A DNA stretch of 25,796 bases from a virus. The stretch is taken from positions 1 through 25,796 of IMG/VR virus record IMGVR_UViG_3300010396_000351; one strand, 5' to 3'. Below, one piece after another: positions 155-22,093 of this stretch. The translations under genes and the position numbers were made by a program. The notes beneath the pieces were generated by a model. The model saw nothing but the letters and a program-made list of their open reading frames with translations. It was not told the DNA's origin and did no database searches. The stretch's first letter is position 1, and each line of letters opens with the position of its first letter.

Positions 155-1129
155 GTGGGGGAGATAGGACAAGCCAATAGTGCTGTAGGACTCGGCAATA
201 ACGTTGCCGGTATGTTCGGCCAAGGCAATTCTAGTCTAGGCGCTATTAACTCAGGCGTAGGGGATATCCTGGGACTCTATTCTGGACTATCCAGAGGTGG
301 AGTAACCGGAGATGCTCAAGCAGCCATAGATGCTGGCAGATTAGCTAATCAGGCAGGTCTATTCGGCAGCGCTAGCGGAGGCATAGGGCAGGCTCTAGGA
401 GCAGCTGCTATACCTCTCAGCCTCTATAACGAGATCAATAGCTGGGAGTCCGGTAGTACTGGTAACGATGCCCTGGGCGGAGCTTCTACAGGAGCCGCCA
501 TAGGCTCTGTGGTACCTGGAATAGGTACGGCCCTTGGAGCCTTAATAGGAGGCGCTGCGGGCGCCCTATCAAGCCTGTTCGGACCTGGCAAGAAAGACCC
601 AGAGACGGCAGGAGTGCAAAATATCATTAACGCGGTTGGCCAGAATCCTGGACAAGCGCAACAGATTACTTCTCAGGTCCAAGATCCTTACCTAGGACTA
701 GCGGGACTGTTCGATGAGAGATCCTCTACTCTGCCTATGTACCAGCAGTACGGTCGTATGGGGGAGCAGAAGTTCACCAACGACATGATTAACAAGATCA
801 ACTCTGCCTTTGCAGCGGGTACCATAAACAAGTCCTCTACTCCCGAGCAGGTCTACGATAAGGTCGTAGCCCCTTGGGTAGGCTCTATGGGCCAGGGATG
901 GTCTAATGTAGGCTCTACTTACAAGGCTACCACACAAGGTCTTCTGCAGGATATGGTCTCCCAGTATATGTCAGGACAGGCTCCTCAAGACTGGAAAGCC
1001 ATAGGAGGAGATTCTCCGTTCTCCGGATTAGCAGCTTACGGCTCCGCTCCTGGTGCCTCTAGTGTTCCTTATAACCCTGTAGCTATAGGCGGTAGCGGGG
1101 CTTCTAATCGTTCTTTATATAGGTTGTAA
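155..1129 (+). CDS. Gly/Ala-rich virion protein, possible inner-membrane/ejection protein (T7 gp14-like position)
   Basis: The 324-aa product is very rich in Gly, Ala and Ser. Residues about 105-143 form glycine-zipper segments (GAAIGSVVPGIGTALGALIG and the following stretch) that could insert in a membrane. The C-terminal half is polar, with Gln/Tyr-rich stretches. It is the first and smallest of three consecutive genes of 324, 518 and 956 aa. That order resembles the internal virion (ejection) proteins gp14-gp15-gp16 of T7-like podoviruses, but I see no decisive motif, so this is inference from size and position. The start is uncertain: the GTG at 155 has no good SD, the next in-frame ATG (212) has none either, and the frame stays open upstream to base 2 with no ATG. 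TAA 1127-1129 lies 4 bases before the next gene. Confidence 0.75.
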   Translation: MGEIGQANSAVGLGNNVAGMFGQGNSSLGAINSGVGDILGLYSGLSRGGVTGDAQAAIDAGRLANQAGLFGSASGGIGQALGAAAIPLSLYNEINSWESGSTGNDALGGASTGAAIGSVVPGIGTALGALIGGAAGALSSLFGPGKKDPETAGVQNIINAVGQNPGQAQQITSQVQDPYLGLAGLFDERSSTLPMYQQYGRMGEQKFTNDMINKINSAFAAGTINKSSTPEQVYDKVVAPWVGSMGQGWSNVGSTYKATTQGLLQDMVSQYMSGQAPQDWKAIGGDSPFSGLAAYGSAPGASSVPYNPVAIGGSGASNRSLYRL

Positions 1130-1133
1130 ACCA

Positions 1134-2690
1134 ATGCCAAATGGTATGATTACTCCCAACTTCCTTCTAGCTGACCAGAGATATAATAACTCTCCTGGCA
1201 TAGATCCGTACGCCTATAACCCTCAGAGTATGGGAGGGTATGATCCTATGCAGGCCATGCTGATGAACCAGTTAATGGCTAAGCAGCTGTTCGGGATGCA
1301 GAATCCTAAGCTCATGCTGTCTCAGAACTTCGGGCAGACAGTAGGGGCTAGACTTGGGCAGTCTGTCAACAACATGGTTAACAATGAGGAAGACCAAGCT
1401 CCTAAGCAGACTTCCGCAGATCCAGCAGGTCCTGGTCAAGGTCCTGGTGGGCAGCCTAAGTTTGCTGCCGCTCAGTGGATGCAGCAAGAGCAGCAAAGAC
1501 TAATCGCTAACGGTACTCCGGCTAACAAGGCCCTCTACCAAGCAGCTACGTCCCTTATAAGTAACCCTGCTTTCCAGGGTGACCCCATGACTCAGCTGAT
1601 TGCTGATCACGCTCTAGTCCACGCCACTAAAGAGCTAAGCTATAATCCTATTGAGGATCCTGAGTACAAGACTAAGCAAGAGGCTCTAGGCAAGTCTGCT
1701 GAGAACTTCTACCAGCCCCAAACAGGGGCTAGAGTGTCAGCTATTCCTGGTACTCCTATGTACATGAAACTAGCCAACCCCCAGAGTGGGTGGGTTAGAG
1801 CCGAGAATACTCCTCAGCTAACTCCTGGAGCTATCGAGAAAACCACTAGGAACGGCATGAACGCCACCTATCAGGTTGATAGCCAAGGTGGCCTAGATAT
1901 CTCTGGTAAACCCGCTATTTCCAGCACTCAGCCTTTCCAGGCTGCTGTGAACATGTCAGGTACTCCTGATGAAATGCAGCAGGCCGGGGTTCACATACCC
2001 GGTCTAATGACCAACTCAGGGTATGATAAAGAAGCTACGGATCTCTCTAATAGAGCCAGCGCTACCCAAGATGCTATCAGAGCTATCGACAAAGTTACAG
2101 GCATGGTAAACAACGATCCTGCTTCTGTTGGTAAGTCTGGTGATGTTCTAGAGAGCATCAATAACTGGAGATCCACGGTTAAAGGTCTGGCTAGCACAAT
2201 CACTGGCAAAGACTATTCTATGTCTACCCAGTTTGCTAAAGAGTCAGCTCCTATACTTGATCGTCTACGCCAGAAAGGTATAGATGCCACTACGTTCAAC
2301 TCGGCTATCACAGACTTGGCGTACGTCATCGAGAAAGCTCAGGGTAACACTAACACAGATCCTGCTTCTCGTAAGTCTCGTATTGACCAGATTAAAGAGG
2401 ATCTCCTGGCTGATCGTAGCTCAGATCCTTTGGCTGTTACTAAGGCTTTAGGGATGCAAAGGGACAATCTCATCGAGAGATTGAACGACGCCTACGATAA
2501 CTCTCCCAACAAGAACCTAAGGCAGTCTAAGCCTCAGTTCTTGCTAGACGAGAACATGCAAGCTAATGGTAACAAGGACTGGGGATTTGCTCCAGCCGGT
2601 CAGGTCATGGGTAAGCTTAAGAAGGGGGATAAATACATGGGCCACACCTACAAAGGTGGGGACTTCAAAGATCCCTCTAACTGGGAATAA
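1134..2690 (+). CDS. Virion protein, possible internal/ejection protein (518 aa)
   Basis: The 518-aa protein starts at an ATG four bases after the preceding stop; an AGG about 11 bases upstream is a weak SD, and a second ATG lies at 1146. The N-terminal 90 residues are rich in Met, Gln and Asn (for example QAMLMNQLMAKQLFGMQN). A Gly/Pro/Gln linker follows at about 90-110, and then a mostly helical Ala/Gln/Asp-rich body. There is no signal peptide, transmembrane segment or enzymatic motif that I can recognise. Its middle position in a row of three large genes suggests a T7 gp15-like ejection protein. That is positional inference only; a tail or neck protein is also possible. It ends in TAA four bases before the next ATG, so the genes are likely cotranscribed. 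Confidence 0.75.
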   Translation: MPNGMITPNFLLADQRYNNSPGIDPYAYNPQSMGGYDPMQAMLMNQLMAKQLFGMQNPKLMLSQNFGQTVGARLGQSVNNMVNNEEDQAPKQTSADPAGPGQGPGGQPKFAAAQWMQQEQQRLIANGTPANKALYQAATSLISNPAFQGDPMTQLIADHALVHATKELSYNPIEDPEYKTKQEALGKSAENFYQPQTGARVSAIPGTPMYMKLANPQSGWVRAENTPQLTPGAIEKTTRNGMNATYQVDSQGGLDISGKPAISSTQPFQAAVNMSGTPDEMQQAGVHIPGLMTNSGYDKEATDLSNRASATQDAIRAIDKVTGMVNNDPASVGKSGDVLESINNWRSTVKGLASTITGKDYSMSTQFAKESAPILDRLRQKGIDATTFNSAITDLAYVIEKAQGNTNTDPASRKSRIDQIKEDLLADRSSDPLAVTKALGMQRDNLIERLNDAYDNSPNKNLRQSKPQFLLDENMQANGNKDWGFAPAGQVMGKLKKGDKYMGHTYKGGDFKDPSNWE

Positions 2691-2693
2691 TTA

Positions 2694-5564
2694 ATGCCCA
2701 CCACTCCTTGGGAAGCACTTTCAGCTACGAGCGCTGACGCAGGGCCTTCTACTCCGTGGGAGGCCCTCTCTAATCATACGAACGTAGTATCTAAGGCTCT
2801 CAACAGAACACCTTTCATGCTGCCTCAAGGCTACGCTGCCATCGATCCTTTCAACAAGGTTCAGCAGAGTGAGGCCGCTCAAGGCATATCTCCGTTCACC
2901 TCCAAGGATCAGATGGCGGCTAAGAACGGAGTAGACATCTTTACTGGGGCTCCTTACGGTCTACGGAACATGGTAGACCTAGCCTCAGATCCTAAGGATA
3001 AGCTCCAGGCCATCAATAGCTACTTCGGTCGTAAAGGTATCCACCCCCCTGAAGGGGTGCCTGGCATGGCCAGGATAGGACCTGATACTGGAGAACCGGA
3101 GTACTACAATCCTGAAACTCAACGGTACACTACCGTAGATTCTCGTAAACAGAACTCTAACGGTCTAGCAACTCTGCCTAGCATCCCTAATGCTGTGGAG
3201 GGAGGAGCCGTTACAGCGGCTGCTATGCTTGGGGGGCCAGGAGTTATAGCTCCGGCTCTTATGGGCGGTCTAGCTACCTCTGCTGCCGAGACAGTCAAGT
3301 ACGGGCTTAACGCTCTACTAGGCAACGACTCTACAGCTAAAGACACTCCTACCATGACAATCAAAGGTCAGCCTGTCCACGTAGACGTAAGTGCTCTAGG
3401 CAGCAACGTTCTAGAGTCCGCTAAGACTACTGGCTCGGGGCTGCTGTTCGGAGGAGTAGCCTCTATTCCTAGGGCTGCTAAGTTCTTCAGATACGGACCT
3501 ACGCTGTTCGATGAGCCTGTGTTCCACGGAGACTATTGGGGAGAGATCGCTAAGGGCCTACAAGAGGCTCAAGGGGATCTGCAGGACTTCTATAAGCTGG
3601 CGGGGGAGAATAAGGTAGTCCTGGACGTAGCCCAGCAGTCTCAGCACGAAGCTGCTCAGATGGCTATGGGTACCGGCCTGGGCCTCAAAGCCAATCAGGT
3701 AGACTATAACCTCAGGGCTAAGGATAACCAGACTAGCCTCCAGAGAACGTTCCAGAAGGTCATAGACGCCTATACAGGCTCCGCAGAAGGGGCCCCTATG
3801 GAGTCTGGCCAGAACATTACTAATTTTGCGGCTGAGCAGAAATCTGCTGCAGCTGCTAGATCGCAGCTGGCTCAGCAAGCGGCTATAGACAACGCTAAAC
3901 AGACCGTAGATGGTCTGCCTAAGATGAACGACGCTGAGATTAACCAAAGAGTCACGGAACAGCTAAACCTTAAAGAGCAAGCCCAGAAGCAAGACTTGGA
4001 TCAGGCATGGGGGGACCTTAATGTCAAGCTAGGCGTTCACCCGTATGATGCCTACCAGCAAGATGCTAGCCTCTATGCTCACCCCGTAGACAGTACTATG
4101 AACTTCCAGTGGTTACCAGAAAATCTGTCCCTGATGAAGGAGTACTTGGCTAGGGCAAAGACTATAGGTAAGGTAGACACAGATATTAAGGGAGCTAAAC
4201 TCAGGGCTATCCCTGACGGGTTCCTAATCAATGCCGAGCCTACCCCTGGCACAGATATTACGGAGGCTGATAAGGCTCTTATGGAGTCTATCGGCCTAGA
4301 GCCCCCAGAGCCCTCTGACGGGGAGTCTGGTGGACTCAAGATCAGTGAGAAGCCCAAGCCCATGTGGGCTGTCATAAGCGCCATTAAGGGCCTACGGGCT
4401 GGTGTGCGCCAAGACATGGCCAGAGCTAAGGGGGCCATACCCCCCGATATCCAGGACACAGCGAGAGTAGCTCAGATCCTGGCAGATAATGCTAAGGCCA
4501 ATATGGCCGAGCAAGATCCTACGGCTCTAGCAGCCTGGGAGACGGCGGAGACTAAGACTCAAGCTTATGGAGATAGGTGGAGACAAGGTGTACTGGCTGA
4601 AGCGGCTAAGAAGAAGGATGGGTTCAATACTCCTGTTCAGTCTAATGCTGTCTATAATACTCTATTCGATAGTGGCATTAACGATAATCCTGCTGGGGTT
4701 CAAGCCCTGAACGATATCTCTGACGGGGATCCTAGTTTTCAGGATTCTATCCGTCAGTCGATATTCTCTATCTATCGTAACCACTACACCAAGAACGGTG
4801 TCCCAGACCCTAAGCTACACGCTAAGTTCATGAACGATATGAAGCACCCTATGGATGCTTTCTTCGGACCTGACGACATGAGTGCTGTAGATAGGTTAGG
4901 GACTCTAGGAGACGCCGTAGCCTCTACCTCAGCCGAGGTTAAGGCTTTCGAGAAGACGTGGAAAGAGTCCCCATACGGTGATATTCCGGCTAACTCGACT
5001 ATGCTAGCCAAGGCTGCGTTCTCTAATGCTGACAGTGTGCAGGGTATAGGTTCGTTCCTCAGGAACCATAACCCAGAACTACTGGCTCAGCTTCAGAAAG
5101 ACACAGCTATCCAGCTGGCTAGTCAAGTGCTAGGCACAGAAGGTAAAGGATTCAATAGGAAGGTTTTGAATGATGCTCTGGACACTGTAAAGGGGCGCCA
5201 GATCCAGGACATTATGGGTCCTGAGTTCATGGCTAATTTGAAGACTATTAGGAACGTTGCGTTCCATGTCCAGAACACGGTTGCGGGGGATGTGAAAGCT
5301 GATGACCCCCTCATCTATAGGATCATCAAGCTTTACACGGGTGCCTTTGGACGAGAGGCCAGAACGGTCCACGTCCTTAAAGGGTGGAGACAAAAAGGGG
5401 CCCAGAATCTTCTCTACAATATTCTATCGGACCCCGATAAGATGAGACAGTTTATGTCGAAGGCTCAAGCTCAAGGAGAGCAAGCTACGGCAGGATCTGT
5501 TCTAGGTACTATGGGAGCTTCTATACTTTCCCCAGACTTCGACGATCACCAGCCATCACAATAA
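2694..5564 (+). CDS. Large virion protein, possible ejection protein (956 aa)
   Basis: This is the longest gene in the window. The N-terminus carries a tandem TPWEALS motif (residues about 4-10 and 20-26). A Gly/Ala-rich hydrophobic stretch at about 168-205 (GGAVTAAAMLGGPGVIAPAL and beyond) could touch a membrane. The rest is a long, helix-prone Gln/Ala/Lys/Asp-rich body with no recognised catalytic motif; I found no lytic transglycosylase signature. Size and position resemble the biggest internal virion proteins (T7 gp16 type), which form a DNA-ejection channel, but homology is not shown. The start at 2694 follows the previous stop directly, with a weak GGGA upstream. The stop at 5562-5564 overlaps by 9 bases the end of the convergent gene on the other strand, and I see no terminator hairpin there. 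Confidence 0.78.
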   Translation: MPTTPWEALSATSADAGPSTPWEALSNHTNVVSKALNRTPFMLPQGYAAIDPFNKVQQSEAAQGISPFTSKDQMAAKNGVDIFTGAPYGLRNMVDLASDPKDKLQAINSYFGRKGIHPPEGVPGMARIGPDTGEPEYYNPETQRYTTVDSRKQNSNGLATLPSIPNAVEGGAVTAAAMLGGPGVIAPALMGGLATSAAETVKYGLNALLGNDSTAKDTPTMTIKGQPVHVDVSALGSNVLESAKTTGSGLLFGGVASIPRAAKFFRYGPTLFDEPVFHGDYWGEIAKGLQEAQGDLQDFYKLAGENKVVLDVAQQSQHEAAQMAMGTGLGLKANQVDYNLRAKDNQTSLQRTFQKVIDAYTGSAEGAPMESGQNITNFAAEQKSAAAARSQLAQQAAIDNAKQTVDGLPKMNDAEINQRVTEQLNLKEQAQKQDLDQAWGDLNVKLGVHPYDAYQQDASLYAHPVDSTMNFQWLPENLSLMKEYLARAKTIGKVDTDIKGAKLRAIPDGFLINAEPTPGTDITEADKALMESIGLEPPEPSDGESGGLKISEKPKPMWAVISAIKGLRAGVRQDMARAKGAIPPDIQDTARVAQILADNAKANMAEQDPTALAAWETAETKTQAYGDRWRQGVLAEAAKKKDGFNTPVQSNAVYNTLFDSGINDNPAGVQALNDISDGDPSFQDSIRQSIFSIYRNHYTKNGVPDPKLHAKFMNDMKHPMDAFFGPDDMSAVDRLGTLGDAVASTSAEVKAFEKTWKESPYGDIPANSTMLAKAAFSNADSVQGIGSFLRNHNPELLAQLQKDTAIQLASQVLGTEGKGFNRKVLNDALDTVKGRQIQDIMGPEFMANLKTIRNVAFHVQNTVAGDVKADDPLIYRIIKLYTGAFGREARTVHVLKGWRQKGAQNLLYNILSDPDKMRQFMSKAQAQGEQATAGSVLGTMGASILSPDFDDHQPSQ

Positions 5565-12996: not shown

Positions 12997-14205
12997 TTAA
13001 GCTACCTCCTCGACTAGGCCGATTCTCGGATCGACCCTGATTTGGAACGAGTCGTGGATACCCCCGAGCTTGTTCTTCGAGACGTTGATCGTCCGAAAAT
13101 TATATCTCTTGTCTTCATTTGAAGCTCCGATCCCCACAGCCAGGTCAATGGCTCCAGGAATCCCGGTTTTTGAAAAGTCAATGTCACTGAGTTCGAGGTG
13201 AGATCGGCCTTCAGCCGAATCCCCTGCTTGGGTAACTGAGACAACCAGGACTCCAAGACTTTTGGCGAGATTCCTGGCACCGATGGCAGCTTTTTCGAGG
13301 GCAACGACACGGTTATCATCTCCTACGTTAAGGTTACGAAGCTGGTCTAGAACTACGACCTGAGGTTGGTACTTATCACATAGTCGCACAATTTCCGGGT
13401 ATGACCCCGGCGATAGTGGGGCTCCAATAAAGAAGTCGTAGTTTCGAGATTTTGCCAAGTCAAGGCTTTCGCGTGGAGAGCGCCTAATCTCCTCCTTAGT
13501 TCGTCTTGTGAGGCCCCCCACAAAGCGAAGAACCAAGTCAGGCATTGGGTCCTCGTTGCCAATGTAAAGGCAAGTTCTCTCTCGCTCAACGAACGAGCGT
13601 ACCATGTTAAGCGTGATGAGGGTCTTTCCAATTTCAGGTCTAGCAAATACAAGGACGTGATGTCCTGGTCTCGCGCCTCCTTCGCACATCTTATCAAGCG
13701 TTGGTAGTCCCAGGGAAATTGTGGAGGAATCAAAGTGTCGCTCAAGTAACTCCTCGAGCCCAACTCCACGATATACGTCATTGCCGTCAACCCTATCATC
13801 TGGTACTCCTAGCTCTTGATATACCTTGAGCAGTTCATCGACTTCACTGCCCTCTTGGCGATTTGCGAGTAAGCCAGCGATCTTATCACCGACTCTAAAT
13901 CTACGCTGTCGTCGAAGATCGCTGACAAGGTTGGGTACAGATATGGTCCCGTCAAGTCCAGATACGAAACCCTGAATGATTCCAGCAGTCTTAGGGCTGA
14001 GGACCTTCTCTGTGCAGCGGTTAGCAATAATCTCCTTGTTACAAGATCCTGCAGCCGGGTCTTGAGTGTAGTAATCCTCGATACTTTTCGCGACGACAGT
14101 GCCAATCGAGGAGAAGGCGGAGTCGTAACTGGAACCGATAGCCTCTCGTACCAGCTCATACGACCCCCTGCTTCCTATCATCGCCGATAAAATCTCTCTT
14201 TCCAT
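12997..14205 (-). CDS. Replicative DNA helicase, DnaB-type (RecA fold)
   Basis: The 402-aa protein begins MEREILSAMIGSRGSYELV, like the N-terminal domain of DnaB helicases. The RecA core carries Walker A ARPEIGKT (188-195, with Ala in the first position), the H1a Glu in YIGNEDP (E218), Walker B VVVLDQL (D287) and the sensor VVSVTQAGDS. It would form a ring that unwinds the fork in front of the polymerase. Unlike T7 gp4 it has no primase domain; the primase is the next gene upstream, and the two genes overlap by 50 bases. ATG 14205 is preceded by GAGAGG at good spacing. Confidence 0.9.
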   Translation of the reverse strand: MEREILSAMIGSRGSYELVREAIGSSYDSAFSSIGTVVAKSIEDYYTQDPAAGSCNKEIIANRCTEKVLSPKTAGIIQGFVSGLDGTISVPNLVSDLRRQRRFRVGDKIAGLLANRQEGSEVDELLKVYQELGVPDDRVDGNDVYRGVGLEELLERHFDSSTISLGLPTLDKMCEGGARPGHHVLVFARPEIGKTLITLNMVRSFVERERTCLYIGNEDPMPDLVLRFVGGLTRRTKEEIRRSPRESLDLAKSRNYDFFIGAPLSPGSYPEIVRLCDKYQPQVVVLDQLRNLNVGDDNRVVALEKAAIGARNLAKSLGVLVVSVTQAGDSAEGRSHLELSDIDFSKTGIPGAIDLAVGIGASNEDKRYNFRTINVSKNKLGGIHDSFQIRVDPRIGLVEEVA

Positions 14206-15040
14206 CTACTGCCTCTCTAATCCTTTTCCTTGAGACGTACTTCAGGTCATCCTTAAGAGACCACACTTCTACGTTATCCCCCCATATTATACCAAATTTG
14301 TCCTTATATTTCATCAACAGATGCATGGTTCCTCGATCCAGGGCCAAATAAATGGGTCCGTTCCAGTCATTATAAGCCTTGATCTCATAGGCTCTCTCGA
14401 AGTCTATGAAGGTCCCTAAGAGGGCCACAGCCTTCATGCCGGCATCGGACACTTTCTTAGCGCTGAGCCAATCCTCAACTACCACTACCCCTGGGGCATA
14501 ATCCTCTATGGGCATATCCCAAGAGATAAAAGGCTGTTCCGTCGTGGACGGGTAGTGCAGAGCCTTTATCGGCCTAATCCCTAGGTAGTCCCTGAGGGTC
14601 CAGCCCCGCATTTCCATGCTGGGTCCCCTGACCTTGTGGGCGTACATCTTCTTCTCCTCACACCAGAAGGTTGACATACGGTTCAGATTGATGCCGTAAG
14701 TATCCCTGAAGATCTCGACATCCGTATCCGCAAGGTCCGTAAGCTCGTCCTTAAAGAGCTTAGAAGCCTTCATAGGCAGAGGATCCTTCTCCTGGACGTG
14801 CTGGGTACCCATGAACTGGCGACCGTAGAACCGGCAAGTAGCCCGGAAACAGATGAACCTTAGCATAGAGCCTAGGTCTCGGCTCACCAAGAAAGACTTC
14901 TCTTTGGAGTCACCTCCTTTACATTTGGGACATATGCCACGGGCAGATTGCCCGGCATACAAGGTAGTAGCCATAGCTACTATTTCAGCAGCTTGGTCTG
15001 GAGTTGTGCTATACATCGTCTTCATGCTCGAGATCATCAA
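14156..15040 (-). CDS. DNA primase, zinc-ribbon plus TOPRIM (T7 gp4 N-terminal/DnaG type)
   Basis: The 294-aa product starts with a zinc ribbon (C37, C40, C64, C69), as in phage and bacterial primases that recognise the priming site. A linker follows, then a TOPRIM core: VVVVEDWLSAKKV (E189), the glycine segment ALLGTFID, and IYLALDRGT (D235). The usual DxD is here DRG, so the second acidic residue must come from elsewhere. It synthesises RNA primers for lagging-strand synthesis and pairs with the separate helicase just downstream. Several Met codons crowd the start; 15040 is used, while 15025 and 15016 are possible. Its start overlaps the acidic 67-aa gene. Confidence 0.85.
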   Translation of the reverse strand: MMISSMKTMYSTTPDQAAEIVAMATTLYAGQSARGICPKCKGGDSKEKSFLVSRDLGSMLRFICFRATCRFYGRQFMGTQHVQEKDPLPMKASKLFKDELTDLADTDVEIFRDTYGINLNRMSTFWCEEKKMYAHKVRGPSMEMRGWTLRDYLGIRPIKALHYPSTTEQPFISWDMPIEDYAPGVVVVEDWLSAKKVSDAGMKAVALLGTFIDFERAYEIKAYNDWNGPIYLALDRGTMHLLMKYKDKFGIIWGDNVEVWSLKDDLKYVSRKRIREAVDGKRDFIGDDRKQGVV

Positions 15041-15212
15041 GGGCTTTTCCTATGACCTCATCTAGGTCTGGTTCGTAGACTCTCTCGTCGTCTACGTGAA
15101 GGTTTAAGGGCTGGTAAGACTCATCGTCCGAAAAGTCTACCGACTCTTGATCGTCGGGTTCCTCCGACGAGTCCGTCTGAACTCCCGGTAACAGAGGTAC
15201 TTTCGTTCTCAT
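15009..15212 (-). CDS. Small highly acidic protein (67 aa)
   Basis: ATG 15212 has GAGGAG about 9 bases upstream. The protein is strongly acidic (SSEEPDDQESVDFSDDESYQ in the first half; DDERVYEPDLDEV and LEHEDDV in the second), with no hydrophobic core and little predicted structure except a short C-terminal helix. Such proteins can mimic DNA or interact with basic partners, but that is speculation. It overlaps the 147-aa CCG protein by 92 bases and the primase by 32 bases, so it is translationally linked to the replication genes. Confidence 0.65.
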   Translation of the reverse strand: MRTKVPLLPGVQTDSSEEPDDQESVDFSDDESYQPLNLHVDDERVYEPDLDEVIGKALDDLEHEDDV

Positions 15213-15564
15213 TCTTCTTGCTCCTCAGGAATACGGTCCTCTTAGAGACCTTTTTGTCTTTGTGGGCGAACCACATAAAGAATTTCAGATAGTTATAGCT
15301 CTTGGGGTTCTTGCCAAGCTCGATCTCGTCTACGTGGTACCCCTCCTTACGTAGAAAGGCAGCCCAAGCGTCCCCTCCTCCGGCCTGGTGGTCAGGAGAG
15401 GCTTTTCCTGTGGCATCCGAGAACACCACAATCACAGGTAACTTACCGTTACCGGATTGCTTGAGACTCGTTAAGATGAGGTCCAACGCCTCCTTGGTAG
15501 GCGGCGTATAGAGACCAGTCATCTGGTAGGTCCCGCAACAATTCATCGTAGATGATACTTGCAT
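15121..15564 (-). CDS. Small 'CCG' protein, paralogue of the gene at 21698-22093 (147 aa)
   Basis: From ATG 15564 (AAGGA 8 bases upstream) the product begins with NCCGTYQM (8-15). It then has a hydrophobic strand PVIVVFSDA, GGGDAWAAFLRKEGYHVDEI and LKFFMWFA. The same order occurs in the 131-aa protein at 21698-22093 (GCCGVFVM, VNVVFTDA, GEFWASCFRKMGWKVKRIQL, LRLWVA). The two are clearly related and lie on the two sides of the amide-ligase cluster. The last 45 residues, Ser/Arg/Gly-rich, are outside the shared domain and overlap the acidic gene. No known family is recognised; the alternating strands suggest a small Rossmann-like fold. It is the first gene after the hairpin-rich gap. Confidence 0.7.
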   Translation of the reverse strand: MQVSSTMNCCGTYQMTGLYTPPTKEALDLILTSLKQSGNGKLPVIVVFSDATGKASPDHQAGGGDAWAAFLRKEGYHVDEIELGKNPKSYNYLKFFMWFAHKDKKVSKRTVFLRSKKNENESTSVTGSSDGLVGGTRRSRVGRLFGR

Positions 15565-15589
15565 CTCTGTTTTCCTTTGAAATAAATCG

Positions 15590-15609
15590 CTTGACACATG
15601 TTAGTCAAG
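15590..15609. promoter_or_regulatory. Inverted repeat overlapping a promoter (operator candidate)
   Basis: CTTGAC and GTCAAG form perfect 6-base arms separated by 8 bases. The left arm contains the -35 box of the rightward promoter and the right arm lies just before the -10. A dimeric repressor binding here would block that promoter. The repeat is 26 bases upstream of the leftward CCG gene start, so it could affect both directions. No protein partner is identified. Confidence 0.45.
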
Positions 15610-15619
15610 CTGATATAAT
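15591..15619 (+). promoter_or_regulatory. Consensus sigma70 promoter facing right
   Basis: TTGACA (15591-15596), a 17-base spacer and TATAAT (15614-15619) match the sigma70 consensus perfectly. Transcription would begin near 15626 and run into a region with no + strand gene but three hairpins. This is the clearest host-type promoter in the window. Its direction, opposite to all surrounding genes, is the odd part. Confidence 0.7.
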
Positions 15620-15625
15620 ATTTGT

Positions 15626-15752
15626 CTTCCATCCCCCAAGACAGTGGGGGAATAAAAGGGGGTTGATAAAACTCTTACTCTTCGCGCTGTCCACCCCAAG
15701 ACAGCGCTCTTAGAGTCCGGCCTCACCCAAAGGCCGGACTCTCTTAAGAGAG
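15626..15752 (+). ncRNA. Candidate structured small RNA with three hairpins
   Basis: Downstream of the consensus promoter lie three perfect stem-loops: 15632-15651 (TCCCCC/GGGGGA), 15684-15707 (GCGCTGTC/GACAGCGC) and 15713-15741 (GAGTCCGGCCT/AGGCCGGACTC, 11 pairs). The sequence CCCCAAGACAG occurs twice, in hairpins 1 and 2. The last stem is followed by TCTCTT and sits in a 14-base palindrome (15739-15752), so it could act as a weak terminator. Read on the - strand, none of the stems has a good T-run, which argues against simple leftward terminators. The alternatives are tandem leftward terminators after the 219-aa gene, or a replication-origin structure. Confidence 0.45.
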
Positions 15753-15753
15753 A

Positions 15754-16413
15754 TTAGGCTACAGCCTTCTCGGCTTCCGCCTTATCTACAGAACCTAAGG
15801 AATAAGCGTGAGAGGTTAGCATACCTCGAGCGTTATTCCTGAAGCTCTCGCTTTTGGTAGCGAGTGCTTCTTTATCGAAGACTACTACATCCGGAAGGAA
15901 CAGCACCGTCAATCTTGACGGGTGCGCGAAGGTGCCGTAGGTCAAGTTGCCAAATATAGGCAACTGGTAGACCGTAACTCCGTAGCTAGGATCACGCTTG
16001 AATATCTCAATAAGAGACCCAAAGTTCCTCCAGTATGGGATGTCCCGGAGGTTTTGGTAGATAGTATCCGAGAACACAAGAGCTGAGGGCTTGTAGTGAC
16101 CTGGGTCACTCGGGAAGATTGTATTAGCTCCCCCAGCAGACAGAGGGCCGAAGGTTTTGTTCACCTTCAGGCTAGCCAACCACTCCGTGATAAACTCTTT
16201 CTCGTTCTCCTTGCCGAGCTTCTCGAACTCTGTGGTCCTGGGCGGATCGTAGTACGTGTCGAGAGAAGTGCTGGTGGCGTCGCCGGCAAGCCCTTGAGTA
16301 GTCACCTCAAGATGGATGCGGCCTACCATCTTCGTGCCACAATTGTACTCGACGAACTTAGTCACGAGCCTAGCCGTAGCGGCTTTACCGAACCATTTGC
16401 AAGCGATAGACAT
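15754..16413 (-). CDS. Unknown protein of the amide-ligase cluster (219 aa)
   Basis: I start it at ATG 16413, preceded by GGGGAG at 9 bases and lying 2 bases after the stop of the ATP-grasp gene. The longer frame from 16464 would overlap that gene. The product begins MSIACKWFGKAATARLVTKF and contains EYNCGTKMVGRIHLEV, a Pro/Gly-rich middle, an aromatic segment (YQNLRDIPYWRNFGSLIEIF) and hydrophobic strands (YQLPIFGNLTYGTF, RLTVLFLPDVVVF). It ends KAEAEKAVA. It looks soluble, alpha/beta and structured rather than catalytic; no family is recognised. As the last gene of the ligase cluster, before the hairpins, it is a candidate substrate or carrier for the ligases, but that is inference. Confidence 0.72.
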   Translation of the reverse strand: MSIACKWFGKAATARLVTKFVEYNCGTKMVGRIHLEVTTQGLAGDATSTSLDTYYDPPRTTEFEKLGKENEKEFITEWLASLKVNKTFGPLSAGGANTIFPSDPGHYKPSALVFSDTIYQNLRDIPYWRNFGSLIEIFKRDPSYGVTVYQLPIFGNLTYGTFAHPSRLTVLFLPDVVVFDKEALATKSESFRNNARGMLTSHAYSLGSVDKAEAEKAVA

Positions 16414-16415
16414 AA

Positions 16416-17204
16416 TTAATGACTCCCCGGATTGATTAAGCGACCTAAACAGAGTGAAAACCAACTAAGCGCTTGGCCTTCTAGGCCTGGGGCGGTGTTC
16501 ACCTCCCCCACTACATAGTTCCCCTTCGTATCCTTCATCACATCCACCGCTCCGTAGTCCAGTTTCATAGCTTTCATAGCTCTGATTGCTAATTCCATAG
16601 CCTTCGGGTCGTCGGGGACCTCCCTCGAATATATCCACCCGTTCGAGTACGTCCTGACGAACGTTGTCGGCGCTTCGCTTATGTCGAACTCTTTGTACCG
16701 ATTTTCGAGGACTCTTTTTTTCTCCATGTAGAAGGTCGAATACGTGTCCCCTGACCTCACGCACAGGACCCTGCATTCCACCCTCTTCGGGAAATACTTT
16801 GTGTAGACCTTGCACGACGACGGACCTCCTTCCCCCTTCTTGAATAAAGTAAGCCCCGACCCGCTGTGTCCGTGAAGGTTGTGATGGCCTATTACAGATG
16901 ATGTTTTGTGCCACTTTAACGCTTCGGCCACGTCCTTAGTCCATTCTAGGGTCGCTATCTTAGCCTCTGATAGAGCTTGGAACGTCCTGAGCTTATTGGC
17001 GGCTACGGCAACCCGGCTTGCATGGTTGAGTACCCTGCACCTAACCGGCAAAACTTTGCCACATCCCCAATTAAGAATCAGACTAGGAGTCACGAGACGG
17101 GGCTTATCAAACTTTTCTGGTGTCCTTACGACCGCGTTCAAGGACGCCGCAAGCCTTCGCGGCGTCCCTCCCCTCCACGGGGATAAAATTACTTTCATTG
17201 CCAT
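16416..17204 (-). CDS. ATP-grasp ligase (phage amide-ligase cluster)
   Basis: The 262-aa protein has the ATP-grasp layout. Around 111-118 a glycine-rich loop (HGHSGSGL) fits the nucleotide lid; VYTKYF and RVLCVRSGDTYSTF form the central strands; DYGAVDVM (216-223, D221) and GEVNTAPGLEG (233-243, E234 and N236) give the C-terminal metal-binding motif. Such enzymes join a carboxylate to an amine through an acyl-phosphate. Its neighbours are a class II amidotransferase and two further amidoligase-type genes, matching phage clusters described as peptide or metabolite tagging systems. ATG 17204 follows AGGGGGG by 4 bases, and the previous stop is 9 bases upstream. Confidence 0.82.
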   Translation of the reverse strand: MAMKVILSPWRGGTPRRLAASLNAVVRTPEKFDKPRLVTPSLILNWGCGKVLPVRCRVLNHASRVAVAANKLRTFQALSEAKIATLEWTKDVAEALKWHKTSSVIGHHNLHGHSGSGLTLFKKGEGGPSSCKVYTKYFPKRVECRVLCVRSGDTYSTFYMEKKRVLENRYKEFDISEAPTTFVRTYSNGWIYSREVPDDPKAMELAIRAMKAMKLDYGAVDVMKDTKGNYVVGEVNTAPGLEGQALSWFSLCLGRLINPGSH

Positions 17205-17213
17205 GGTACCCCC

Positions 17214-18803
17214 CTAATTAATTTCCGCCGAATCCAAGGGTCCAGGCACGAAGTCTTCGTCCTCGCCCTTATCTGGAGCATCCGGGAGAACTATCTTTTC
17301 CTCTTCTTCGTTCTCCAGCTTCTCAGCTATGTCCTGAGGAAGGGTGATGTTCCTCTCAGCCGCTATCTGGAGAGTAAGCTCCTTACAGCAAGTAGGGCAG
17401 ACCATCTGCCTCTGAACATCGGTCGGCAGATCCTCGGGATTGAGCGGATGAGTCATGAACCCTACGTGACCCACGTCTGTATCCAGAATAGCTCCGTCGC
17501 ACTCAGCGCAGCCCTCCTTCTGAAGGTCCTTCCACTTCCACAGAGAGATCTGACCGGCCCATCCAGGGACTAGGTTAACCGTGGGGTGCCAGTACTTCTT
17601 ATTGTTAAGCTGAGTCTGGGCTCTTGTTCGATCCAGACACACCTCATAGCTCAGGATCTCCCTATTCGTAGTGGTCTGCTTTACAATTTCCACTCTGAGG
17701 ACCTTGCACGGTAACTCCTCGATGAGATCCTTGTAATGAACCAGATCCTCTTTGTTTATGCCGACTAGTTTGATCGACGAGTCTTGGTCGAGTTTACGGG
17801 TCCCATAAATGTACCCATAAATAGTCTGTTCTCCATTCTTGTTTGTTCCGTGGTGGAAACTTCCTCTCGATCCCGCAACAAAGCTGAAATCTCCGTAGAT
17901 AATGTCCCCTTTAAGGGGATGCAAGGGATTGATTTTGACGGCAGAATCTTCTGCGAGGGGGTCACTCCCAGTATTCGCTCCAGTCGTCCGCGATCCATGG
18001 GTACCTGCCTTCCCTGAACCCCCTTGGTACCCCTGGTACGCTTTTTTTTCTTCGTATTTCCTTGCAAGAGGCTTGTCCAAGCTATTCTTGGTAAGGTCCC
18101 AAGTATAATGGATAAACGGTTTCAACTCCCAGTAGTTCTTATCCACCTCTACGCCTACTCTATCCAGAGCGAACTTCAACATTTCCTTCTCGGAAGAGTA
18201 GTAGATCTGAGTCTTGGCCTTGTTCGCCACCATGTACAGCTCACGAGTCCCATCGTTACGGCAAATGTTCATGGTCTTGGCTAGCTGGTTGTACCACACC
18301 AGTACGTAGAAACCGTCAAGTTCGGCCAGGACGTTCTCCACCTTGTTCTCGCCAGCCATCAGAAGGGCGTAGGCGATGTGGGCGGAGTCCACCGGATGGT
18401 TGAAGTCGGTTGGCGTCAGCCTGAAAGCCTTCGAGCAATGCCCGTTGTGCGTCAGCATGACCGCTTCCATCTGCTTCTTGTCGTTCTCGATCTCCCATAC
18501 AAAGGGGTGCGCTCCTTCCGTATTGTAGCTGTTCTGGTTGGTGGAATGCCTGGTATGCCCTAGACAAGCCCTGCTCTGAACCATGAACTTCTTGGCCCAG
18601 GCCCAATGACGGGTCTGGAGGAAGTCCGGCGAAGCAAGGTGAGACTTGCTGAACGAGGCGGCGAAGTTCGACTCCACCAAGCCTATACCAGTGCCGTCGG
18701 TACCTCGCAGAGCATTGACGTACAGTCCGTGCTCCATGAGGTCAATGATTTTATGATCAAAAAGGGCATTATCCGCTCGGAAAGCCCCAAAAAGTCCACA
18801 CAT
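17214..18803 (-). CDS. Class II glutamine amidotransferase (Ntn-hydrolase) with extended C-terminus
   Basis: The protein (529 aa) begins MCGLFGAF, so removal of Met exposes the catalytic Cys2. RGTDGTGIGLVE (33-44), GHTRHST (82-88), GAHPFVW (97-103) and LTHNGHC (117-123, oxyanion Asn120-Gly121) are the GAT-II signature. YYSSEKEMLKFAL (201-213) is the typical end of the domain. The enzyme frees ammonia from glutamine. There is no asparagine-synthase or GFAT synthetase domain; instead residues about 230-529 are unfamiliar, with a Gly/Ser-rich linker (258-280), paired cysteines C432/C435 and C469/C472 and a very acidic tail. Ammonia is probably passed to one of the ligases encoded next door. ATG 18803 has AGAGG 5 bases upstream. 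Confidence 0.87.
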   Translation of the reverse strand: MCGLFGAFRADNALFDHKIIDLMEHGLYVNALRGTDGTGIGLVESNFAASFSKSHLASPDFLQTRHWAWAKKFMVQSRACLGHTRHSTNQNSYNTEGAHPFVWEIENDKKQMEAVMLTHNGHCSKAFRLTPTDFNHPVDSAHIAYALLMAGENKVENVLAELDGFYVLVWYNQLAKTMNICRNDGTRELYMVANKAKTQIYYSSEKEMLKFALDRVGVEVDKNYWELKPFIHYTWDLTKNSLDKPLARKYEEKKAYQGYQGGSGKAGTHGSRTTGANTGSDPLAEDSAVKINPLHPLKGDIIYGDFSFVAGSRGSFHHGTNKNGEQTIYGYIYGTRKLDQDSSIKLVGINKEDLVHYKDLIEELPCKVLRVEIVKQTTTNREILSYEVCLDRTRAQTQLNNKKYWHPTVNLVPGWAGQISLWKWKDLQKEGCAECDGAILDTDVGHVGFMTHPLNPEDLPTDVQRQMVCPTCCKELTLQIAAERNITLPQDIAEKLENEEEEKIVLPDAPDKGEDEDFVPGPLDSAEIN

Positions 18804-18815
18804 TTCGACCTCTTC

Positions 18816-19709
18816 TTATTTGGTGTAAGACGCAAAAAGATACAAAGTGGCTAGACCCAGCTTAAAGTTGCCGTAAGGGTCGAGGCCGGGCATGATATCT
18901 GCGTAGTCTTCTTCAAATACCTCCTTAGTAAAGTCGAACGGGCCCTTTTTCTGAGCCTCTTCTATGATATCGCGAACAGAAAGAGTGTGGGTCACGGCCC
19001 ATTTCTTGAGTCGCATCAATAGATTAACCCACTTGACGATCTTGTTCTTAGGCATGTCCACAGAGGCGTGCCTGAACTCGATCGTACCGTAGTCCCCTAA
19101 GCTGAAGAAGTTCAAGCCAGCGTACTTGTACTGCTTAGCCTCCTTCAGGCTACGGGCCACCTTGGTAGGGGCCTCTGGGAACATTTTAAAAACGGACATA
19201 GAACGGAAGTACTGCTCTATGTGCTGAGGATGGATGTACCACGGCACACAGTAGTTACACAGACTCCGCTCGTCCCCTATAAAGTCGTACAGGGCAGGCT
19301 CTACGAGGCAATATACAGCCCCCAGACGCTCTACTGTCTCAGGGAACTCCGTGTCCAGCATATCCAAATGGACGTGCAGGGAGGTCCTATAAGAGCCCTG
19401 AAAGCCCTTTGCTTTGGCTACCTGATCCATTACGTCTATGGCGTTTATAACGTGAGACCCCATGAACGGCTTACGGAACACGTACTCAGCAGAGCTGCCC
19501 CTAAGGGAGCCGTCGGCGTGGCAAGTAAAATAGTTCCTAAACTCCGTACCTAGTGCGTCCGTACCCAAGAAAGAGAAGTTCTGTACGTTCTCCCACTCGT
19601 ACTCCATACCTACTTTGCACTTCGGGAGACACAGTAAAGGAGTATCTACGGCTGCCGGAGGATCCGGGGGGAGCCCCAAGATATCCCTGACTTTAAGATT
19701 GGTTTTCAT
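18816..19709 (-). CDS. Amidoligase_2-family COOH-NH2 ligase
   Basis: I begin it at ATG 19709, 2 bases after the previous stop and behind GGGGA; the longer frame from 19784 would overlap the previous gene. The 297-aa product carries amidoligase signatures of the glutamine-synthetase/GCS-like fold: KVGMEYEWE (32-40), HADGSLRGSSAEYVF (64-78), SLHVHLDM (110-117) and, later, GTIEFRHASVD. In these enzymes the acidic and His residues bind ATP-Mg and the substrates to form an amide bond. Amidoligase_2 proteins, GAT-II and ATP-grasp enzymes recur together in phages, as here. It may act on a peptide or a protein side chain. The substrate cannot be read from sequence. Confidence 0.8.
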   Translation of the reverse strand: MKTNLKVRDILGLPPDPPAAVDTPLLCLPKCKVGMEYEWENVQNFSFLGTDALGTEFRNYFTCHADGSLRGSSAEYVFRKPFMGSHVINAIDVMDQVAKAKGFQGSYRTSLHVHLDMLDTEFPETVERLGAVYCLVEPALYDFIGDERSLCNYCVPWYIHPQHIEQYFRSMSVFKMFPEAPTKVARSLKEAKQYKYAGLNFFSLGDYGTIEFRHASVDMPKNKIVKWVNLLMRLKKWAVTHTLSVRDIIEEAQKKGPFDFTKEVFEEDYADIMPGLDPYGNFKLGLATLYLFASYTK

Positions 19710-19711
19710 TC

Positions 19712-20713
19712 TTATATTTCCCCAAAGTACTTGGTTAAGACGAGGTTGATGTAGGACGCAGACAGTTCGTTCCCCTTGTTCCACGCGGCTACGTGGGTGT
19801 AGTTGGGATGATTTATAGGGTCTCCTAAAAACAAGTAGAAGGCGTGATCTATATTACCCTGCAGAATGTGTCCCCTGCCCCAGCTAGGCATGACCATTTG
19901 CCCTACTGACTCGAACGCTCGGCCTGTCTGTTTGCTGTAGACTCCTAGTCTCCAGGAGGCTTGAGTAGCTCCTGGAGGAGCAGCTGGGTGCAAAGGCCCA
20001 AACTCATGACGTTCCGCTTTTGCTGGCTCTGGAGGATCTACGGTGATGTTCTGCGGGCTTACACGAGCCTCTCCGACTAAGAGTTTGCCAAAGAAATCGT
20101 TCCTATTGTAGAGGTGTATCTTCCTAGCCAGATCTATGGTCCCTATCTTTCTCCTGCCGTACAGCACGTCTCCTTCAATAAACGGGTTCTCTTGCACGAA
20201 TACGAACCCTCCTTGGACATGAGCTGCGGCTCTCTTGGACCGTAGGAACGCATCACCGTCAGGCAAAGTGAGCTTATAGGAGGGTGTATAAATCTCAGGG
20301 AAAGCCTTCTGCAAGAAGTGCTGCTCTATCCTCTCATTAGTAGTCAAGTTTCCCCTGACCTCAATGTTCGCCGTCTCAGCGTACAGAGACTTTCTCCTGT
20401 TCGTGGCTAACTCAGGGTACCAAGAAGCGCACCCATCGTGGAGATTAAACAGCCTAGGCTTGAACGAGGAAATGCAGAAAAGGTACTCCCACCAAGCAGC
20501 GAACGGCACGCTCTTTTCCTTCCACTCCTCTCCTAAAGACAAATACTGGCCCCCTATTGTATTGTGGTCATTAGTCCCCTCCACTTGGTAAAGGCGGAAC
20601 TTATCACTACCTGGGCGCAGCCTGTAGACCATGTAGGTCCCACGGAAGTAGTGATTAAAATCTTGCGCTGAGCAATCTTTGTACTTAGCTGCGCTTATGA
20701 AGTGTTCCCCCAT
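19712..20713 (-). CDS. Unknown protein of the amide-ligase cluster (333 aa)
   Basis: The gene lies 3 bases after the COOH-NH2 ligase and 2 bases before the amidoligase_2 gene, so all three are surely cotranscribed. The product starts MGEHFISAAKYKDCSAQDFN. It contains aromatic-rich and basic segments (RGTYMVYRLRPG, AAWWEYLFCISSF, RIEQHF-like and VYSKQTGRAF) and a Pro-rich stretch near 226-245 (VDPPEPAKAERHEFGPLHP). It ends YINLVLTKYFGEI. It has no signal peptide or TM helix and no motif I recognise. NHY/WYP/WGRGH motifs suggest a specific fold. It may bind the ligase substrate or be a further enzyme of the pathway. Confidence 0.75.
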   Translation of the reverse strand: MGEHFISAAKYKDCSAQDFNHYFRGTYMVYRLRPGSDKFRLYQVEGTNDHNTIGGQYLSLGEEWKEKSVPFAAWWEYLFCISSFKPRLFNLHDGCASWYPELATNRRKSLYAETANIEVRGNLTTNERIEQHFLQKAFPEIYTPSYKLTLPDGDAFLRSKRAAAHVQGGFVFVQENPFIEGDVLYGRRKIGTIDLARKIHLYNRNDFFGKLLVGEARVSPQNITVDPPEPAKAERHEFGPLHPAAPPGATQASWRLGVYSKQTGRAFESVGQMVMPSWGRGHILQGNIDHAFYLFLGDPINHPNYTHVAAWNKGNELSASYINLVLTKYFGEI

Positions 20714-20716
20714 AAA

Positions 20717-21685
20717 CTACACCGCCTCAGGGTCGTCGCCCACATGGAATACGAAGTCGCCTGTGGAGAAGGTCTTCTTGAGTGGAGGAGGCTCTTTCTT
20801 TAGCGGCTTGCCAGGGAAGACCACAGTCTCTAGCCTTCCCTTGAGGATGTTCCCTGCGGACGAAAGTGAGTGGAACGCCCCGAAGGAAGCCTTGAACTTG
20901 TTCGATGAGGTTAGCTTCCTAATCGAATAGTCGGACATCCAAGTATTCACAATCTCAGCAAGCACTCGTCCATCAGAGCTTTTCTCCAAGAGAGCAGAGA
21001 CTAGTGTCAAGGTGTTATCGAAGAGGTTGATGAAGTGAGTCCTATCAGATTTCGGCTGAGCATGGTGGCACCACCAATTATCTGGGGATCTCCACTCCAC
21101 ACCATAGTCCGTGTCTCTGTACAGTCCAGGGTGTCCATAGAACGGATATCGAGTCGTGTCCATTCTCTTACACCACGGGTTCAAGACTAGGAAGTCTAGG
21201 ACCGTAACGAAAGTCTCCCTCGCCAACCCTTCGGGCCACGGATCGATGCCTACGTGAATATGGCCTCCTGCGAACCGGCTCGTCTTGAATCTGTTGATCT
21301 GAGGAGCGGTGCGAAGGCCATACACAAACTTGTCTGCTGAACACCCTATCACCATCGTGGCGGGGTTCATCTTGAGAACAGTTTTTGGAAACTGCGCGCT
21401 GGTGCCTGGCGCTATTACGTAGTTCGGGAATTTGGCTTCGAAGACTTCAAGAACTTTATCGATCTTCAAAGCCACTTGTTTCAAAGAATCAGACGGAACA
21501 ACGTTGATCTCCACTGTTGCCCCATCCTCTAAATAGCCCCCCTCTTCACAAATAAGAACGGGGGCTTTTTTAGTGCCCCCGAATTTACCACACGCCGGCA
21601 CTACGTGCCCAGAAGCCTCCTCCTGGACAAAGAACTCAGGATCAGCCCCGACCGTGATGTTGAACTTCTTCTTGCTTTTCGTCAT
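20717..21685 (-). CDS. GCS-like COOH-NH2 ligase, phage phiEco32 type
   Basis: The 322-aa product shows the fingerprint of phage COOH-NH2 ligases of the phiEco32 'type 2' group: VGADPEFFVQEE (12-23), YLEDGATVEINVVPS (51-65), GGHIHVGIDPW (140-150) and RDTDYGVEWRSPDNWW (190-205). The His/Glu/Asp residues match the ATP-Mg pocket of glutamate-cysteine ligase-like enzymes, which form peptide (amide) bonds via acyl phosphate. It is the first enzyme of the cluster in transcription order. ATG 21685 follows the 131-aa CCG gene by 12 bases. Two GCS-fold ligases, an ATP-grasp ligase and an amidotransferase together imply a multistep amide-forming pathway. Confidence 0.83.
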   Translation of the reverse strand: MTKSKKKFNITVGADPEFFVQEEASGHVVPACGKFGGTKKAPVLICEEGGYLEDGATVEINVVPSDSLKQVALKIDKVLEVFEAKFPNYVIAPGTSAQFPKTVLKMNPATMVIGCSADKFVYGLRTAPQINRFKTSRFAGGHIHVGIDPWPEGLARETFVTVLDFLVLNPWCKRMDTTRYPFYGHPGLYRDTDYGVEWRSPDNWWCHHAQPKSDRTHFINLFDNTLTLVSALLEKSSDGRVLAEIVNTWMSDYSIRKLTSSNKFKASFGAFHSLSSAGNILKGRLETVVFPGKPLKKEPPPLKKTFSTGDFVFHVGDDPEAV

Positions 21686-21697
21686 TGGAAATCCTCG

Positions 21698-22093
21698 TTA
21701 CTTCTTAGTGGCTACCCAGAGCCTTAAACCGTTCCCGGTAGTGGGACTCCGATTTAATTGAATCCTCTTGACCTTCCATCCCATCTTCCTGAAGCACGAA
21801 GCCCAGAACTCCCCGTTCTCGTAGTCAACGGCAAGGTCGTTGGCGTCCGTGAACACCACGTTAACGGCTCGGGCAGTAAGGTCTTTAAGAGAGTCTACGC
21901 CTGCCTTGAGTTGATCAGATCTTTTAAGAACTTCCTTCGTGTAACTGCCGGCAAGTTCCTCGTAAAATACGTCGTCTTCCGGATTCCCGAGGTTATACAT
22001 AACGAACACACCGCAACATCCAGGGAGTTCGCAGATTTCGTTTTCTTCAACGAAGATCGGATCGCCTTTTGCACTGCCTTTTGTACCGCTCAC
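21698..22093 (-). CDS. Small 'CCG' protein, paralogue of the gene at 15121-15564 (131 aa)
   Basis: The start is GTG 22093, preceded by AAGGA 6 bases upstream. The N-terminus is variable (Gly/Ser/Glu-rich), followed by PGCCGVFVM (24-32), a helical region, VNVVFTDA, ENGEFWASCFRKMGWKVKRI and LRLWVATKK. The Cys-Cys-Gly motif, the V-VVF-DA strand and the W-A---RK-G---V--I-L block are shared with the 147-aa protein 6 kb away. It stands directly before the COOH-NH2 ligase. It could be a carrier, substrate or regulator of the ligase pathway. I do not know the family; the role is inferred only from position and duplication. Confidence 0.72.
   Translation of the reverse strand: MSGTKGSAKGDPIFVEENEICELPGCCGVFVMYNLGNPEDDVFYEELAGSYTKEVLKRSDQLKAGVDSLKDLTARAVNVVFTDANDLAVDYENGEFWASCFRKMGWKVKRIQLNRSPTTGNGLRLWVATKK

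Follow-up and report, generated by a model that had tools for sequence, protein, structure and literature searches.

A divergent copy of a widespread predicted amide-ligase cassette of phages, and its near-invariant protein X, in an IMG/VR virus record

A set of phage genes predicted to encode amide ligases has already been named the 'peptidoglycan modification module' or cassette (PMC5498523, PMC11945000, PMC6256558, citing Hardies 2013 and Iyer 2009), and its proposed role is to block superinfection or to prepare lysis (PMC10580990, PMC11945000). In PSA-HP1, infection is followed at once by transcription of the homologous genes (PMC7082346). Mass spectrometry of a preparation of phage SU10 found the ATP-grasp protein, the glutamine amidotransferase and a YtfP/UPF0131 protein resembling gamma-glutamyl cyclotransferases (GGCT), which are listed as early gene products (PMC4281155). 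No demonstrated substrate was found in the literature on the cassette, though its product has been guessed at since 2009. Here, we describe a module of this kind in the IMG/VR virus record IMGVR_UViG_3300010396_000351, a fragment contig of 25,796 bases that is taken at its full length and referred to below as the window. This module is almost certainly a divergent copy of the phage cassette composed of a COOH-NH2 ligase, a protein hereafter designated as X, an Amidoligase_2 protein, a class II glutamine amidotransferase (GAT-II) and an ATP-grasp ligase. New here are the recognition of X as a near-invariant protein of the cassette, a family formed by the small proteins p7 and p8, and an extended operon boundary. 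The five cassette genes occupy the following positions in the window:

20717..21685, minus strand: COOH-NH2 ligase type 2 (322 amino acids, aa), a predicted GCS-like amide ligase (PF14395, phrog_3815)
19712..20713, minus strand: X (333 aa), with residues ~15-208 corresponding to the phrog_4877/11055 family and ~215-333 forming a C-terminal extension
18816..19709, minus strand: Amidoligase_2 (297 aa), the second predicted GCS-like amide ligase (PF12224, E=9.1e-8)
17214..18803, minus strand: GAT-II (529 aa; PF13522, E=3.7e-10)
16416..17204, minus strand: ATP-grasp ligase (262 aa) resembling RimK and alpha-L-glutamate ligases (PF08443, phrog_2599)

The cassette in described phages and in the window

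Members of several phage groups share the gene order of the window. In the LUZ24-like phages (Bruynoghevirus PaP3, Vicosavirus NV1, UFV-P2), the COOH-NH2 ligase, an X of ~190 aa, Amidoligase_2, GAT-II, ATP-grasp and the primase/helicase genes succeed one another as they do here (PMC3890496). PaP3 and NV1 also have a 72-aa gene and a GGCT at this place, and two ~300-aa genes upstream, whereas the window has neither, carrying p7, p8 and a protein designated as Y instead, together with a longer X (333 aa). The phiEco32-like phage SU7 shares all five components and their order, PF14395 being named for phiEco32. The initial annotation of this DNA was right to relate it to the systems of the phiEco32 type that Iyer et al. 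2009 predicted. GAT-II and ATP-grasp are longer in SU7, a GGCT is present, and the window proteins are ~22-28% identical to their counterparts. The 'peptidoglycan modification cassette' of RIO-1/PSA-HP1, described as seven genes (PMC5498523), likewise combines two amidoligases, an ATP-grasp and a GAT-II beside replication genes, but it contains a GGCT, and GAT-II precedes the ligase in related Zobellviridae loci. The order is also retained in LAh_9 and BUCT695 and rearranged in Stenotrophomonas phage StenR_269, which shares the cassette (GGCT, COOH-NH2 ligase, ATP-grasp, X, Amidoligase_2, GAT-II) and has one of the DNA polymerases closest to that of the window (36% identity over 96%).

Database searches revealed how broadly these genes are distributed. 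TBLASTN searches of 50,697 phage records detected the COOH-NH2 ligase in 306, Amidoligase_2 in 295 and the amidotransferase in 300. In 13 annotated neighbourhoods, the same proteins were clustered beside the primase and helicase genes of LUZ24-like, phiEco32-like, Zobellviridae, Lahexavirus and unclassified phages, and PA11- and RIO-1-like phages and dozens of environmental phages likewise have these genes, in this order, beside primase/helicase. Scanning IMG/VR with the ligase alignment gave more than 500 relatives; 80 were retained. Across 94 loci, one of them the window, the arrangement seen most often (34 loci), followed by rearranged versions, is COOH-NH2 ligase, X, Amidoligase_2, GAT-II, ATP-grasp, GGCT; the window matches this class without the GGCT, and has a primase-like gene and a DnaB helicase downstream. 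By comparison, ~85,000 bacterial and archaeal species genomes yielded 11 relatives only. Each of these lies on a contig of a metagenome-assembled genome, as would be expected of a gene restricted to phages. Thus, the combination of enzymes singled out in the initial annotation is indeed the predicted set, but is less unusual than implied, since it belongs to a widespread cassette that already has a name.

A second class of loci (L016, L018, L021, L024, L034 and similar) carries the COOH-NH2 ligase and GGCT with no detectable X; its matches to ATP-grasp, GAT and a ~570-aa amidoligase-like protein are weak. No close relatives of the window suitable for selection tests were found with the ligase, X, amidoligase or DNA polymerase.

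Predicted ligases, amidotransferase and ATP-grasp protein

Profile searches and alignments of catalytic residues (13-48 sequences) placed the four enzymes in known families. The 322-aa ligase matched phrog_3815 (E=1.8e-29; profile score 102 bits) and obtained 24.2 bits with PF14395 COOH-NH2_lig, for which the cut-off is 25. It keeps all 19 columns that are invariant among 48 homologues, and the conserved positions of the family include D15/E17, D54, E59, R137, H142/H144 and G195-E197-R199. The 297-aa protein scored 32.7 bits with PF12224 Amidoligase_2 (cut-off 22) and matched phrog_7469 (5e-36), with the invariant residues G34, E36/E38/E40, H112/H114, E211 and R213 all kept. The collected homologues of the two ligases match the same Pfam models without exception (48/48 and 43/43). 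The two ligases were also considered as mutually detectable homologues, an idea dismissed by an hhalign probability of 0.7% and an alignment limited to the H.H segment. For GAT-II, PF13522 GATase_6 gave 40.4 bits (cut-off 27) and phrog_4736 gave 2e-36; the protein starts with M-C-G, so keeping the Cys2 nucleophile, and retains R85, N120-G121 and D139 at invariant positions. The 262-aa protein matched PF08443 RimK (27.5 bits, cut-off 21) and phrog_2599 (7.5e-44), with K71, K163, E234 and N236 kept.

Three families of ATP-dependent carboxylate-amine ligases and a glutaminase-type domain, each with its active-site residues intact, are therefore predicted in a single tight operon beside the replication genes, in a gene order that unrelated phages also conserve, and judging from the sequences, these family assignments and motifs are not due to chance. 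Both the consecutive same-strand genes and the enzyme families with their active-site motifs listed in the initial annotation were verified, down to the 2-12 base gaps, and profile placement and residue conservation uphold its assignment of the 297- and 322-aa proteins. Identities of ~25-30% with relatives, the missing GGCT and the unrelated extension of X could suggest a cassette that is decaying and non-functional in the lineage of the window. This is extremely unlikely, as the reading frames are all intact, their spacing is tight and every invariant catalytic residue is kept.

No synthase domain was recognised in the 529-aa GAT-II. Its profile matched the structures of GlmS, PurF, AsnB and EgtC, the best being the glutaminase domains of GlmS and PurF. 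The remainder of the protein is a tail of ~300 residues with a zinc-ribbon-like C..C/C..C motif; the two CxxC pairs recur in most phage relatives, and the rest of the tail is poorly conserved. Since the class II fold also performs gamma-glutamyl hydrolysis, as in EgtC, a supply of ammonia from glutamine is plausible rather than established. Gamma-glutamyl groups serve as temporary protection in the biosynthesis of ergothioneine (EgtA/EgtC) and butirosin (BtrJ/BtrG). The cassette could in the same manner build a small gamma-glutamyl metabolite or use such groups for protection, with GAT-II acting as a gamma-glutamyl hydrolase, GGCT, where present, removing the last group, and a cofactor, toxin or signalling blocker as the product. 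GCS-like ligases alongside a GAT-II devoid of a synthase partner domain, the weak match of the GAT-II profile to EgtC (4zfj, E=9e-4) and the GGCT-type enzyme accompanying most, though not all, relatives of the cassette are consistent with this pathway. We regard it as somewhat unlikely, as the best GAT-II matches are the GlmS/PurF glutaminase domains and no GGCT is detectable in the window copy.

The ATP-grasp profile matched RimK and cyanophycin synthase structures. The protein resembles RimK and the alpha-L-glutamate ligases in its C-terminal ATP-grasp core and E..N motif, but scores far below the RimK equivalog cut-offs (rimK_fam, 7.3e-11, with a score far below the family cut-off).

X, p7, p8 and Y

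Reference phages carry between the two ligases a hypothetical protein of ~190-210 aa, assigned to phrog_4877 or phrog_11055 and often overlapping the amidoligase start; in MW202615 the gene is present and unannotated in the record. Used as single-protein queries against phages and IMG/VR, X, Y and p8 found nothing, so that X first looked like an orphan and its family was resolved by an iterated profile alone. A first profile of 12 proteins ranked the window X at the top among window open reading frames with a borderline E=0.0017, which was not relied on. The final profile, iterated over IMG/VR loci to 69 members with the window always left out, matched residues 15-208 of the window X with 38.2 bits (E=5.1e-10 among 7,828 open reading frames; next non-member, 10.5 bits), and hhalign gave a probability of 95.6. 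Position is equally constant, with 66 of 67 family members lying between the COOH-NH2 ligase and Amidoligase_2, as in the window. X and Amidoligase_2 occur together in 68 loci and are jointly absent from 20, Amidoligase_2 alone being found in 3 and X alone in 2 (Fisher p = 4e-15, a significance overstated by the relatedness of the loci). In 12 hold-out loci outside the X profile, nine had both, three had neither and none was discordant. The comparison thus identifies the 333-aa X as a divergent, C-terminally extended member of the ~200-aa phrog_4877/11055 cassette family. Of the two proteins that the initial annotation left as unknown, X therefore proves to be a conserved cassette component, and the 219-aa Y retains that status, being without detectable relatives.

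An AlphaFold model of a typical X has a mean predicted local distance difference test score (pLDDT) of 92.5. Residues 5-109 align with SH3/Tudor-like barrels at Z 5-6.4, a level that may reflect merely a common small barrel; the C-terminal half was barely covered by the fold search, so that absence from its match list excludes no family. The model of the window X (mean pLDDT 65) returned noise only, and its C-terminal extension of ~115 residues is modelled with low confidence. Because the barrel is confidently predicted in the typical X and no conserved catalytic set was seen in the X family, X is probably a binding or scaffold subunit, partner of Amidoligase_2.

The cassette ligases may also attach glutamate-type or other tags to a protein, as RimK does to ribosomal protein S6, for host takeover or to blunt defence; the target would be the host ribosome, the RNA polymerase or a defence protein. 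The ATP-grasp is closest to RimK-type ligases, the SH3/Tudor-like X would suit a binding subunit, and the homologous cassette is immediate early (PMC7082346). Yet three ligases and a glutaminase exceed the needs of a single tag, no target is known and no PADLOC or anti-defence family was matched, and such tagging appears quite unlikely.

The genes flanking the five cassette members are as follows:

21698..22093, minus strand: p7 (131 aa), which opens the operon and lies 12 bases before the COOH-NH2 ligase
15754..16413, minus strand: Y (219 aa), which closes the operon; no homologue detected
15121..15597, minus strand: p8 (158 aa), a paralogue of p7 (E=5.7e-8 with the family profile made without the window)
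12997..15040, minus strand: primase-like protein (294 aa) and DnaB-like helicase (402 aa), encoded where such genes ordinarily follow the cassette (phrog_19, 1.7e-34)

The six module genes from the COOH-NH2 ligase to Y lie on the minus strand at a spacing of 2-12 bases, and the operon starts one gene earlier than initially noted, at p7. Measured from predicted starts, the gaps are 12 bases from p7 to the COOH-NH2 ligase, then 3 to X, 2 to Amidoligase_2, 12 to GAT-II, 9 to ATP-grasp and 2 to Y, and ~156 bases separate Y from p8. BLASTP analysis (E=9e-10) identified p7 and p8 as paralogues, one on each side of the cassette. A family profile built without the window recovered p8 (as listed) and p7 (E=8.6e-6), and members carry Cys-Gly as an invariant pair, with an NxNSxN motif at the C-terminal end (CG...NxNSxN). 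The family is present in ~10 other loci (positions recorded in L045, L052, L060, L079, L085, L038, L015, L046, L031 and L094), where it directly follows ATP-grasp or lies between this gene and either GAT-II or GGCT. It is thus a cassette-linked family. Tandem copies adjoin the ATP-grasp gene in L046, L015 and L038. Motifs in distant relatives prompted the idea that p7 and p8 are GNAT acyltransferases, which was not supported at a significant level: a single distant relative, L080, reached PF00583 at E=0.0049, below the cut-off, and p7 and p8 themselves did not.

Visual inspection placed the start of Y at the ATG in 16411-16413, which makes it a protein of 219 aa, not 236. Y had no match in Pfam, PHROG, NCBIfam or PADLOC and no homologue in phages or IMG/VR; its membership of the cassette is based solely on the 2-base gap. 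A disguised gamma-glutamyl cyclotransferase was considered for Y and found no profile support.

The working unit may be larger than the known enzymes, with X as a dedicated SH3/Tudor-like subunit that Amidoligase_2 requires to bind a substrate or partner, and p7/p8 as a further cassette enzyme or the target of the ligases, so that the phage would run a complete amide-ligation pathway of its own, carrier or substrate protein included. We consider this broader scheme rather unlikely.

Genomic context and proposed mechanism

The left part of the window contains plus-strand genes, with weak matches to tape-measure-like, endolysin and holin proteins, and the rest is a minus-strand block including DNA polymerase, exonuclease, endonuclease, the DnaB-like helicase and the primase-like gene. 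The module sits directly upstream of the replication block, on the strand opposite to the structural genes. Homologues of the primase-like gene also lie downstream of the cassette in loci L026, L035, L015 and L003, and the DNA polymerase is ~36% identical to those of a Vibrio phage (VpV262-like) and StenR_269. A role of the products in decorating or maturing the virion, raised in the initial annotation, could draw on the cassette enzymes found by mass spectrometry in the SU10 preparation, but the same work lists them as early gene products in that preparation (PMC4281155). As the genes belong to a replication/early transcription unit, on the strand opposite to the structural genes, and their PSA-HP1 homologues are transcribed first (PMC7082346), this role is unsupported by anything found and very unlikely.

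Two other regions of the window deserve mention. On the plus strand at 155-5564, a glycine-zipper protein is followed by 518- and 956-aa proteins with no PHROG match, which are probably located inside the virion; the lineage would be podovirus-like and not described before. Also on the plus strand, positions 15591-15745 contain the sole 12/12 match to a sigma-70 promoter in the 9.6 kb scanned (TTGACA-17-TATAAT with a TG extension), its -35 falling within an inverted repeat. Four hairpins follow, one of 12 bp; the folding z-score of the RNA is -6.2, and this hairpin region had no Rfam match. It could represent a small RNA of the phage that lacks annotation and is encoded opposite to the operon.

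Taken as a whole, the module is likely to be an early-acting, divergent amide-ligase cassette directed at a host target; that it performs a multi-step amide ligation is very likely. Expression early in infection would follow the pattern of its homologues. From what is known of the families, each ligase would form an acyl-phosphate from ATP and then join it to an amine, and the ligases would act in sequence, linking a carboxylate of a host peptide or metabolite to amino acids or ammonia in amide or isopeptide bonds. The added residues are probably of the glutamate type, and probably handled by the ATP-grasp, as this enzyme is closest to RimK and the alpha-L-glutamate ligases. GAT-II would supply ammonia or strip gamma-glutamyl groups, while X would bind or scaffold as the partner of Amidoligase_2. 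The leading proposal for the acceptor, drawn from the literature, would be a peptidoglycan stem peptide or precursor; altered peptidoglycan would exclude competing phages or prepare lysis. We favour peptidoglycan as the substrate tentatively, at a probability clearly below even.

Several points weigh against this explanation. The PF14395 score of the 322-aa ligase is 0.8 bits short of the cut-off. The sequence profiles of the 322- and 297-aa proteins matched no solved structure, so that their GCS/glutamine-synthetase fold rests on the Pfam family definitions. The GGCT carried by most cassettes was not found in the window with a 74-member GGCT profile, the contig being a fragment; PA11 and other phages likewise lack a GGCT match, and models needing GGCT are slightly weakened by its absence from this incomplete contig. 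No substrate or product is reported for any cassette member, and for several of the proposed steps the literature yielded no experiment in any phage.

A divergent copy with the same five proteins points to the parts of the cassette that are likely to be indispensable, namely the two GCS-like ligases, GAT-II, ATP-grasp and X. The cassette has copies in ~300 of the 50,697 sequenced phage records and in hundreds of environmental phages. X, which annotations leave out or call 'hypothetical', belongs in any reconstitution, and with it the old question of the product becomes directly testable in laboratory phages such as PaP3 and phiEco32.

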